Assembly (NCBI GenBank): GCA_026125665.1
Contig: JAHCKS010000027.1
Span: forward strand, 1 to 56,426
Length of the DNA: 56,426 nt
Reading direction: 5' to 3'
Origin: Rubrivivax sp.
GTDB lineage: Bacteria > Pseudomonadota > Gammaproteobacteria > Burkholderiales > Burkholderiaceae_C
Shown here piece after piece: positions 31,226 to 33,898 of this stretch; the stretch's first letter is position 1; every line of letters starts with the position of its first letter. A program made the position numbers and the translations under genes. The notes under the pieces are model-generated. The model saw nothing but the letters and a program-made list of their open reading frames with translations, ran no database searches and was not told where the DNA came from.

Positions 31226-31307
31226 CCCCGCTTCGTGCGCCACGGGTCACGCGGCGCGCCTGCGCGGCGCACTGCGGTACTCGAGCTCGCAGGGGCAGGT
31301 CGTGGCG

Positions 31308-31422
31308 CGCCAAGGACGCCGGGTGGTCGGCTCCGCGAATGTCCTCTTTGGGCGGCCCAGCTTCGCTGGTCCCCCCAATGCCCCCTTGATTTCGCTGCGC
31401 CGACCACCCGGCGTCCTTGGCG
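31308..31422. repeat. Stem-core repeat unit A, copy 1
   Basis: Perfect 24-bp inverted arms (31308-31331 and 31399-31422) enclose a 67-bp core (31332-31398). The core contains its own hairpin, CCAGC-TTC-GCTGG. The core is identical, base for base, to that of the unit at 33595-33709, and is 63/67 identical to the reverse complement of the core at 31491-31557. It lies in the 414-bp gap between the convergent DUF2817 and telA genes. Confidence 0.92.
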
Positions 31423-31465
31423 TGGCACCGTGGTCTGTCTTCGATGGGAAACCACTGCGGGTGCC

Positions 31466-31582
31466 GGATCGGGACGGCGGGGTGCCCTGCGCAGCGAAAT
31501 CAAGGGGGCATCTGGGGGACCAGCGAAGCTGGGCCGCCAGAAGAGGACATTCGCGGAGCAGGGCACCCCGTCGGCCCGATCC
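31466..31582. repeat. Stem-core repeat unit B, copy 1
   Basis: Arms of 25 bp at 31466-31490 and 31558-31582 pair with two mismatches and have a sequence unrelated to the arms of unit A. The 67-bp core (31491-31557) is the unit A core in the opposite orientation, with four differences. A 43-bp spacer separates units A and B. Confidence 0.9.
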
Positions 31583-31639
31583 CGCCACCGTCCGTGGGAG
31601 TAGGCGGTGCGCGTCCGACAGCGCACCCCCACGAAGCCG

Positions 31640-32863
31640 CTACATCTTCACCGGCCCCACCGCGATCGTCGACTCCGAAGCCGCATCCCGCGCCAGGTTC
31701 TGCCGCGTGCGGTCCACATAGCTGTCTGCCCGCGCCAGCTGGTCGCGGATCAGCGCGTTGTTCTGCCCCATCACGTCGATCGCCTTGGCGCGGAAGCTGT
31801 CCATCGCGTCCATCGCCTGGAACGTCTGGTCGAACATCTCCTTGATCTTCTCGATGCCGAGCATCGGGTTGCTGGCGAAGTTCGTCGTCGCGTCGACGTG
31901 CTGGTTCAGCGCACGCCCGGTCTCGGTGATGAGGTTGCCGATGGTCGCGTTGACGCCCTGCAGCATCTCCATCACGCGGATCTGGTTGCCGGTGGCGCGC
32001 GCCACGGTCTGCGCCACCGCCAGCGCGCTCATCCCGGTGGTGGCCACGCGCGTGCAGCCGTTGATCATCTCGCGGCCGGTCTTCTTCAGCACGTCCAGCG
32101 CCAGGTAGCCGTTGACGCACACCGCCTGCTGCGTCTGGATGTCGGTGAGGTTCTGGCGCGCGTAGAACAGCACCTCCTGGCGCAGCGCCTGCGCCTTGGC
32201 CGGGTCGGTGGGTTCGAGCGACTTCACCTTCTCCTCCAGCCGCGTGTCCAGTTGCGTCGCGAAGCGCGACGCGGCCGCGAGCTTCGTCATCGCGTCCCAC
32301 AGTTTGCCGCGTGTGGCCTCGATGTCCACCACGTCCTTCTGCATGTCGTCGCGCGCGGCGTAGAGCTGGCCCATGCTCGTCTTCAGCTGCTCGGCGGCGC
32401 TCTGGTACTTACGGAAGTAAGCCTCGAGCTTGTTGCCGAACGGGATCAGCCCGAGCAGCTTGCGCGGCTGCAGCAGGTCGCCTTCCTTGCCCGGATTCAG
32501 CTCGTCGAGCTGGGCGCGGATGGCGGCGATGGCCTGGTAGGCGGGGCTCGCCTCGATGCCGGCGAAGTTGCGCTGCATGAAGCGGCCCTGCATCAGCGCC
32601 GAGGCGTTGCTGATCTCCTCCTTGCCGAGCGCGAAGGCGCTGTCCAGGCGTGCCTTGAACGCGTCGCTGTGCACGTCTTCGCTCATCAGCGCGTCGATGA
32701 AGCGCAGCACCTGGTCGTCGACCTGCTGCGCCAGCTCGGGCTTGAGCGGCACCACCTCGCGCGCCGCTTCCACGGCCACCGGCGTGATGACCTCGGGCGG
32801 TTCGAGCTTGAAGGGGGCCGGCGCGGCCGGCGAAGACGGCGCGGTGGAAGGCGTGTCGCTCAT
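31640..32863 (-). CDS. telA: Toxic anion resistance protein TelA
   Basis: A 407-residue cytoplasmic helical protein of the TelA/KlaA family, linked genetically to tellurite and other stress resistance; its biochemistry is unknown. Family landmarks are KLLGLIPFGNKLEAYFRKYQ, QAVCVNGYLALDVLKKTGRE, MINGCTRVATTGMSALAVAQ, MEMLQGVNATIGNLITETGR and SNPMLGIEKIKEMFDQTFQA. The N-terminal 25 residues are Pro/Ala/Ser-rich. The ATG overlaps the xpaC stop (ATGA), so xpaC and telA are translationally coupled, a pairing found widely. The gene ends 57 bp from repeat copy 1. Confidence 0.9.
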   Translation of the reverse strand: MSDTPSTAPSSPAAPAPFKLEPPEVITPVAVEAAREVVPLKPELAQQVDDQVLRFIDALMSEDVHSDAFKARLDSAFALGKEEISNASALMQGRFMQRNFAGIEASPAYQAIAAIRAQLDELNPGKEGDLLQPRKLLGLIPFGNKLEAYFRKYQSAAEQLKTSMGQLYAARDDMQKDVVDIEATRGKLWDAMTKLAAASRFATQLDTRLEEKVKSLEPTDPAKAQALRQEVLFYARQNLTDIQTQQAVCVNGYLALDVLKKTGREMINGCTRVATTGMSALAVAQTVARATGNQIRVMEMLQGVNATIGNLITETGRALNQHVDATTNFASNPMLGIEKIKEMFDQTFQAMDAMDSFRAKAIDVMGQNNALIRDQLARADSYVDRTRQNLARDAASESTIAVGPVKM

Positions 32864-33558
32864 GGTTTCGATTCCTTGCTGCGGGGCAACGTGAGGGCCG
32901 GGGCTTCGGCGCCCGGCGGCGCGAACTTCTGGCTCAGGAACTTGCTGTGCACGAGGAAGGCGTGCGCGTCCTGCGCCGCCAGGTCGTCGCCGAGCTGGCG
33001 CACCTTCGCTTCGAGGTCGGCCACGGTGTCCTTGAAGGTGTCCACCGCCGTCTTGCCGTTGTCGAGCACACGCGTGGTGGCATAACGCGCCGGGATCGAG
33101 AGGTACGTGTTCAGCGCCTCGGGCAGGTAGCTGATGGCGATGTGCCGGGCGTGAAAGCTGTCCTGCAGCGACAGCGTGCCCTTGCTGCGCTCCCACTGGC
33201 GCAGCAGCTCCTCCAGCGCCTTGCACAGCTCGAGCACGCGCGCCTGCAGGCTCGCGGGGATGCGGTTCTCGGGGTTGAACTCGGTGAGCCGGCGCACGCC
33301 GTCGAGCGCCCGCTCCATCGCCTCGCGCGCGTCGCCTTCGTCCCTGAACTGCAGCTCTTCCCACGCCGGTGCCTTCGTGCTCGGGAAGCCGAGCCACAGG
33401 CCGCCGACGACGAAGCCGACCGCGTAGCCGAGCACCGCGACGCCGAGGCCGAGGTTGCCGAGGAAGCCGAGCGACTTGAGGACCAGCACGGCGATGGCCA
33501 AGCCCAGGCCGCACCAGTTGGCGGGTGCGGCGATCAGGCGCAGGAGTTTCTGGGCCAT
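32860..33558 (-). CDS. XpaC family membrane protein
   Basis: A 232-residue protein of the XpaC family ('5-bromo-4-chloroindolyl phosphate hydrolysis' is a historical name; no hydrolase motif is visible). Two N-terminal membrane segments lie within residues about 14-56 (GLGLAIAVLVLKSLGFLGNL, GLGVAVLGYAVGFVVGGLWL). The rest is helical and cytoplasmic (RVLELCKALEELLRQWERSK, YLPEALNTYLSIPARYATTR, TFKDTVADLEAKVRQLGDDL). It probably anchors or partners TelA. The ATG lies at 33556-33558, 37 bp from repeat copy 2, which separates it from the VWA gene upstream. Confidence 0.86.
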   Translation of the reverse strand: MAQKLLRLIAAPANWCGLGLAIAVLVLKSLGFLGNLGLGVAVLGYAVGFVVGGLWLGFPSTKAPAWEELQFRDEGDAREAMERALDGVRRLTEFNPENRIPASLQARVLELCKALEELLRQWERSKGTLSLQDSFHARHIAISYLPEALNTYLSIPARYATTRVLDNGKTAVDTFKDTVADLEAKVRQLGDDLAAQDAHAFLVHSKFLSQKFAPPGAEAPALTLPRSKESKP

Positions 33559-33594
33559 TGCGGTTCCGAGACCTTGACAACCACGGCCCGCGCG

Positions 33595-33709
33595 CGCCGA
33601 GGCCACCGGGTAGTCGGCTCCGCGAATGTCCTCTTTGGGCGGCCCAGCTTCGCTGGTCCCCCCAATGCCCCCTTGATTTCGCTGCGCCGACCACCCGGCG
33701 TCCTCGGCG
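33595..33709. repeat. Stem-core repeat unit A, copy 2
   Basis: Arms 33595-33618 and 33686-33709 (24 bp, 21 paired) enclose a 67-bp core (33619-33685) identical to the core at 31332-31398. Relative to copy 1, base 5 of the left arm changed A to G and the partner base in the right arm changed T to C, keeping the pair. It lies in the 340-bp gap between the VWA gene and xpaC. Confidence 0.92.
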
Positions 33710-33749
33710 GGAAACGTGGTCTGCCGTCGACGAGGTGCATCACGGTGCC

Positions 33750-33866
33750 GGATCGGGCCGATGGGGTGCCCTGCGCAGCGAAATCAAGGGGGCATTCGGG
33801 GGACCAGCGAAGCTGGGCCGCCGAAAGAGGACATTCGCGGAGCAGGGCACCGCATCGGCCCGATCC
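33750..33866. repeat. Stem-core repeat unit B, copy 2
   Basis: Arms 33750-33774 and 33842-33866 (25 bp, 24 paired) resemble the unit B arms of copy 1. The core (33775-33841) is the reverse complement of the unit A core with two differences. The 40-bp spacer to unit A shares GTGGTCTG and TCGA blocks with the copy 1 spacer, so the whole 272-bp element is one mobile or duplicated entity. Confidence 0.9.
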
Positions 33867-33898
33867 CGCCACGACCTCGGGACGCATCACGCACAACA

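Follow-up and report, generated by a model that had tools for sequence, protein, structure and literature searches.

Inverted doublets of a covarying hairpin with a conserved purine-rich loop recur in Rubrivivax and related Burkholderiales

Introduction

A 56,426-nucleotide stretch of Rubrivivax sp. DNA (assembly GCA_026125665.1, contig JAHCKS010000027.1; hereafter the window) carries four hairpin-forming units that appear to hold one core sequence in stems of changing sequence. Such an arrangement raises the question of whether the folded structure is under selection or the units are merely copied and, if structure is selected, in which molecule it acts and how it spreads. The original prediction, made from the window alone, favored selection on structure over plain copying. 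Here we examine the arrangement, covariation, strand polarity, distribution, and mobility of these repeats and weigh the explanations that they allow.

Results

Two copies of one inverted doublet

All four predicted units were found where they had been placed, the two A units have identical cores, and the closing arms of A and B are unrelated in sequence, each pairing with its own partner over about 24–25 bp. The repeat unit, however, is not the single hairpin as first supposed, since the four units form two A/B doublets that are copies of each other, at 31305–31588 and 33592–33872, with 96% identity between the A halves and 93% between the B halves. In each doublet a spacer separates hairpin A, whose sense strand is the minus strand, from hairpin B, whose sense strand is the plus strand. 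In copy 1, hairpin A (31307–31422, minus strand) and hairpin B (31467–31582, plus strand) are full-length matches to the structure model, with folding z-scores of about −10 and about −8.6, respectively; the spacer (31423–31466) is where the consensus places a weakly supported hairpin C. In copy 2, hairpin A (33594–33709, minus strand) and hairpin B (33751–33866, plus strand), separated by a spacer at 33710–33750, were likewise identified by structure-model match and folding z-score. All four units outperformed dinucleotide shuffles in folding on either strand (z −6.8 to −10.3), and a 20-mer from the core occurs four times in the window compared to 0.04 times expected from shuffles.

Copy 1 lies in the intergenic space 31226–31639, bounded by the stop codons of two convergent genes, one a DUF2817 gene and the other a TelA gene; the ends of this space, judged by eye alone, resemble degenerate terminal repeats. 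Copy 2 stands between two genes on the same strand, one encoding a VWA domain and the other lacking any Pfam match. Neither window element shows an intrinsic terminator (a hairpin followed by a T run) or a promoter pattern, and we therefore rejected a reading as either.

The hairpins are approximately 95–125 nt long. On the sense strand, a variable outer stem of about 24 bp is followed by three bases, the short helix 2, the loop segment UNAAGGRGG, a variable inner stem, and the facing loop segment GRGGACA, giving the core consensus GCGAA-UNAAGGRGG / GRGGACA-UUCGC around a purine internal loop.

Copy number and distribution

An 81-base query gave 73 BLAST matches in the host genome, an assembly of 268 contigs totaling 6.28 Mb with 88.6% completeness, and BLAST detected the element in three of the 61 genomes of a first set of relatives, the host counted. 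A pattern scan found, among the matches listed, the Rubrivivax sp. metagenome-assembled genomes JAEUPC, JAEUPD, JAEUPE, and JALHOU, and the Burkholderiales genome JACRPO. The host and these five genomes, six in all, provided 128 distinct doublets, of which 124 were complete and were aligned; the four that reach the end of a stretch were left out.

The search of Burkholderiales that the original prediction called for showed the hairpin to be widespread in the host family: a covariance model, scoring at most nine candidates per genome, matched 139 of 399 sampled genomes and 62 of 141 genera at an E-value of 0.001. At the order level, the core sequence pattern matched 19 of 399 genomes (families f1, f13, and f21, plus one chance-looking match, G620) compared to three for a reversed-pattern control. 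At the class level, it matched six of 369 genomes, namely the host, G176, two of the three f63 genomes, and two whose matches look like chance, while the reversed control matched two. Named carriers beyond the host clade include plasmids of Variovorax sp. PDNC026 and V. paradoxus, which contain doublets. Since 16 columns are invariant across 31 sequences from 30 genomes, the matches share the core and not merely a hairpin.

Compensatory change in the stems

We folded the 124 doublets using RNAalifold with RIBOSUM scoring, which recovered hairpins A and B whole and hairpin C in the spacer; default settings recover only part of this structure. Compared with shuffles of the 3′ letters, compensatory cells were strongly enriched in hairpin A (277; 85 expected) and hairpin B (271; 63 expected), with 10 in hairpin C (5 expected) and none in an outer closing stem (1.3 expected). 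Hairpins A and B are thus firm, hairpin C and the closing stem are not, and given the latter counts we do not claim a four-way junction.

Similar results were obtained with 68 individual sense-strand hairpins, comprising the four window units and 64 hairpins drawn, with balance among genomes, from 230 eligible ones; 10 loci with damaged or odd copies and hairpins outside 105–128 nt had been left out beforehand. In this set, 95.4% of structure cells were paired, compared to 79.3% in shuffled and 31–43% in slid controls, and 26 of the 42 pairs were altered on both sides. None of 500 shuffles scored as high on any of the five measures. The helix 1 signal derives partly from the A/B dichotomy, but that of helix 3 (seven of 12 pairs) is independent of it. 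Across 31 hairpins from 30 genomes, 98.8% of the outer-stem (helix 1) cells are paired and 24 of the 28 pairs are altered on both sides; the covariation score reaches 0.643, compared to 0.169 when shuffled. Of these hairpins, 29 are non-host top hits of the model itself, which favors paired stems and G.U. In this structure three pairs, two of them labeled “helix 2”, were assigned to columns that are wrong or contain gaps, an error that can only lower the totals, and all such cell counts of pairing and covariation ignore relatedness.

Covariation thus exceeds shuffled controls, as in a structured RNA, and is present both in the 124 doublets of six genomes and in the 31 hairpins of 30 genomes. 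The outcomes set beforehand as speaking against structure, i.e., copies with non-complementary flanks or with identical flanks lacking covariation, were not what we observed, and selection on structure over plain copying is supported. Two details of the prediction needed amendment. The stems do vary freely between genera, but within the host clade those of A and B are two recurring types; similarly, the loop is conserved, but the inner stem inside the supposedly constant core covaries strongly. What evolution preserves is therefore a folded single strand, with stems that change on both sides around a fixed purine-rich loop.

Palindromes may also stay matched without structural selection, through template switching or gene conversion. 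Such processes produce double changes in a single step, and inner stems at loci shared between species do sometimes differ at several pairs together. Against this, conserved mismatches persist within the palindrome (C.C at one position of A in 101 of 124 doublets; G.G at the matching position of B in 96 of 124) and the internal loop remains unpaired; the strand polarity and the exclusion between loop purines described below are not predicted either. We regard this mutational artefact as very improbable, with the conserved mismatches and the polarity largely refuting it.

Selection on the purine-loop strand

When a base pair loses one side through a transition, the result reads as G.U on one strand and as A.C on its complement, and the balance between the two reveals which strand is constrained. 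In the outer stems of the 124 doublets, which had been found by sequence rather than structure, sense-strand G.U exceeded A.C by 74 to 34 in hairpin A and 149 to 27 in hairpin B (223 to 61 together); column 188/280 alone supplies 67 of the 149 G.U in B. By column, 31 of 39 lean toward sense G.U (p = 0.0003). We extended this comparison to 113 distant hairpins, found by sequence motif at 69 of 71 distant loci and required to have Watson-Crick, G.U, or A.C at 17 of 24 outer positions. The ratio was 113:2 in the 56 that are top hits of the model and 104:8 in the 57 others.

A bias of one genomic strand does not explain this polarity, because A and B have their sense on opposite strands. If the sense strand is transcribed, mutation of its C could enlarge the G.U excess; this is unlikely to produce such ratios and would in itself imply sense transcription. 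Pairing thus has the strand polarity of a structured RNA, and selection acts on the strand that carries the purine loop.

The 113 distant hairpins also revealed linked changes in the core. Helix 2 mostly takes one of two forms, GCGAAA/TTCGC (41 hairpins) or GCGAAG/TGAGC (42 hairpins); in the latter a tandem G.A, a motif of sheared geometry, replaces two Watson-Crick pairs, and the sixth base changes along with it. Less common forms, with swapped pairs, are GTGAAG/TGAAC (six), GCGAGG/CGAGC (four), GCGGCA/GCCGC (three), and GCGACA/GTCGC (three). The two variable loop purines, R and R′, are A/G in 79, G/A in 29, A/A in four, and otherwise in one; they are never both G, compared to 20.5 hairpins expected from the margins (Fisher p = 7e-23, uncorrected for relatedness). 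Terminal loops on the sense strand are GNA in 61, GNRA in five, CUUG in two, and other in 45, the first three being stable loops; the antisense strand of the same hairpins has no GNA, GNRA, or CUUG terminal loop.

Location at gene ends and persistence

The inverted arrangement extends to distant loci, where 40 of 42 neighboring hairpin pairs are in minus-then-plus order and 35 of these 40 have centers 142–170 bases apart; 30 of the 113 distant hairpins have no partner by the pattern used. We then classified gene context, with gene orientation assigned by a codon-position heuristic. Among 114 classifiable doublets of the host clade, 61 lie between convergent, 51 between tandem, and two between divergent genes; among 36 loci outside the clade, the corresponding counts are eight, 27, and one. 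As convergent and divergent spaces must be about equally numerous, copies avoid promoter regions and sit at the 3′ ends of genes.

Twelve pairs of loci match between species on both flanks. One pair (L066/L129) is truncated on both sides. At another site, in two genomes (L118 4282–4584; L164 5990–6305), the element stands in opposite orientations, which suggests re-insertion or inversion at one site. At the other ten shared loci, the spacer is 37–74% identical, six have the same first loop segment of B in both species, and the first loop segment of A matches at 11 to 16 of 16 positions. In the inner stems there, 33 differing cells are compensated and 10 are broken in one species; in the outer stems 12 are compensated, 15 are G.U steps, and 44 are broken in one species, part of this breakage being in copies damaged by insertion or truncation. 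Elements are thus retained for long periods, without strict upkeep of each pair.

Inner stems at shared loci that differ at two to four pairs at once suggest exchange between copies. Within one element, the inner stems of A and B are identical in four of 124 doublets, compared to 17 ± 3 expected. Collapsed to haplotypes, the deficit is weak (one of 44 compared to 3.7 expected; 155 of 2,000 shuffles as low), and we accordingly do not claim that A and B avoid cross-pairing.

Two kinds of altered copies were also observed. In L025 (contig C247 of G000) and in L065 and L068 (G012), hairpin B is split at one common point by about 105 inserted bases, which include the palindrome GAACAGTCCAGTGGACTGTTC; the insert is a second small repeat nested in hairpin B, at a locus shared by two species. 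In L176 and L179 (contig C70 of G061, i.e., JAEUPC), the ends are intact and the hairpin A core is missing, a natural internal deletion.

Element ends and candidate transposases

Whether the elements have ends of their own differs among relatives. Copies in JAEUPC have long ends in common, and imperfect terminal inverted repeats occur in some relatives, with both ends recognizable in 26 of 124 copies from four genomes. The three bases just outside these 26 copies, mostly TCA or TGA, repeat directly at 61 of 78 positions compared to 52.7 ± 2.8 expected, a level reached in two of 500 shuffles; some of the 26 ends, judged by eye, seem misplaced. Of 63 settings of length and offset tried, those that include the triplet were the strongest (0–10 of 500), with a few others at 15–50 of 500. 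The triplet is a probable 3-bp target duplication. Some relatives do have MITE-like ends, and the original prediction that the repeat does not look like a MITE with fixed ends may not extend to these copies.

Such ends would suit an ordinary MITE, i.e., a non-autonomous element with terminal inverted repeats that is moved by a DDE transposase and has the hairpins as passengers. We consider this improbable. Only 26 of 124 copies have recognizable ends, and these ends diverge between species, in contrast to a hairpin core that is conserved across genera; passengers would also not keep their covariation, loop motif, and strand polarity. Moreover, an autonomous partner with the same ends was not recognized by eye, whether using one 5′ end in JAEUPC or using the end pattern at up to one mismatch in the six incomplete genomes.

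A second mode of movement is that of a REPIN-like single-stranded DNA element, mobilized in trans by a putative ssDNA transposase that recognizes the hairpins as ssDNA. Structure and polarity would then be kept because only well-folded copies move, with no host function involved. We assign this alternative a lesser, though appreciable, probability. The inverted doublet resembles that of REPINs (PMC3116915), and the strand-specific recognition and stem irregularities of TnpA-REP (PMC8266576) have a parallel in the conserved mismatches here; the element is multicopy, and its outer stems are broken at shared loci. Conversely, A.C is avoided even in very stable stems, and no GTAG tag was seen. The linked transposase that the original prediction suggested seeking was not found either: the host and G012 have no Y1_Tnp gene, and none was found in 14 of 44 further carriers. 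Such a gene is present in G009 and in 30 of 44 further carriers (15 of 24 in one set, 15 of 20 in another). At the 37 Y1 loci, searched up to 1.5 kb on either side, there was no credible hairpin; the model matched nothing in 16 and gave one weak match (E 0.36, 16 bits) in 21. With Y1 absent from the host and G012, no linkage, and different repeats around the Y1 gene of G009, we rejected membership of the RAYT/REP system.

The Y1 genes have repeats of their own, AT-rich and of the GGGGACA or GGGTCAG type. By eye, GGGGACA, a heptamer that also occurs in one loop side of the hairpin, lies in AT-rich context near 11 of 36 Y1 loci (L249, L251, L255, L259–L262, L314–L316, and L319), which favors the REPIN-like alternative and is a lead only. 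At L051 1390–2364 (G009), the Y1 transposase gene is flanked by GGGTCCGGGGTCAGGTCT-type repeats, a separate REP-like system.

Discussion

The explanation that we favor, with confidence balanced near the midpoint, is a mobile inverted doublet of one structured hairpin, likely acting as folded RNA near transcript 3′ ends. On the sequence comparisons available, the hairpin would act as a folded single-stranded nucleic acid, most likely RNA, and a transcript entering from either side would end with one sense hairpin; since the hairpins face opposite ways, the element would work whichever way round it lies. The purine loop probably serves as the recognition site of a protein. New copies would arise as whole doublets, moved by a putative transposition machinery. 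Two observations favor RNA over ssDNA, namely the 3′ location and the avoidance of A.C even in stems that are very stable. Set against this explanation, ssDNA could obey the same pairing rules, outer stems are broken at shared loci, and the element is reversed at one of them.

A more specific reading, which we hold somewhat more tentatively, is that the element constitutes an undescribed bidirectional structured RNA, carried by a mobile inverted doublet in at least 62 genera, with the purine loop a putative specific binding site for a protein or ligand that acts on mRNA 3′ ends. That site would comprise GGRGG facing GRGG, with the R/R′ exclusion and a switch of helix 2 between Watson-Crick pairs and tandem G.A.

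A structured element with strong covariation is thus common in a large bacterial family, in 139 of 399 sampled genomes, without an Rfam match. The RNA-function and ssDNA-transposase alternatives are testable in cultivable Variovorax, because doublets occur on plasmids of V. paradoxus and of Variovorax sp. PDNC026.

Comparison with known systems

The element is apparently undescribed so far. The window has no match to Rfam 15 at the gathering score, and those below it are implausible, mainly eukaryotic miRNA models; hence, we did not assign the element to a known Rfam family. Literature searches showed no description of it, and none of the six genus names looked for occurs in PMC3733652.

Among short repeats, ERIC, NEMIS, and Correia elements are MITEs. 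The present element resembles these in being short, non-coding, and dispersed and in having terminal repeats with a probable 3-bp duplication in some copies; it differs in that two internal hairpins with covariation and polarity are conserved, rather than the ends. Strong covariation and conserved internal-loop nucleotides are shared with the candidate structured RNAs of PMC2864571, from which the inverted doublet arrangement distinguishes it. A further likeness is to STAXI, for which that paper leaves undecided whether RNA or ssDNA is the active form.

The nearest kind is the REPIN, which PMC3116915 describes as an inverted doublet of palindromic units. Recognition by TnpA-REP is strand-specific, for REP and not iREP, and involves conserved stem irregularities, according to PMC8266576. 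As in REPINs and BIMEs, two inverted palindromic units and a spacer form one extragenic, multicopy repeat, as seen in the 40 of 42 distant pairs and in the doublets of six genomes; the strand-specific hairpin and its conserved irregularities are further likenesses. The differences lie in the hairpins, which are about 95–125 nt rather than 20–40 nt and contain a purine internal loop, in the foot of the hairpin, where alignments inspected by eye show no GTAG (or CGTC) tag, and in the Y1 transposase gene, which is not linked to the element and is absent from the host. A REPIN-like architecture is here separated from the RAYT transposase thought to drive it, so that one should expect either a further, as yet unrecognized ssDNA transposase or an RNA function in the host.
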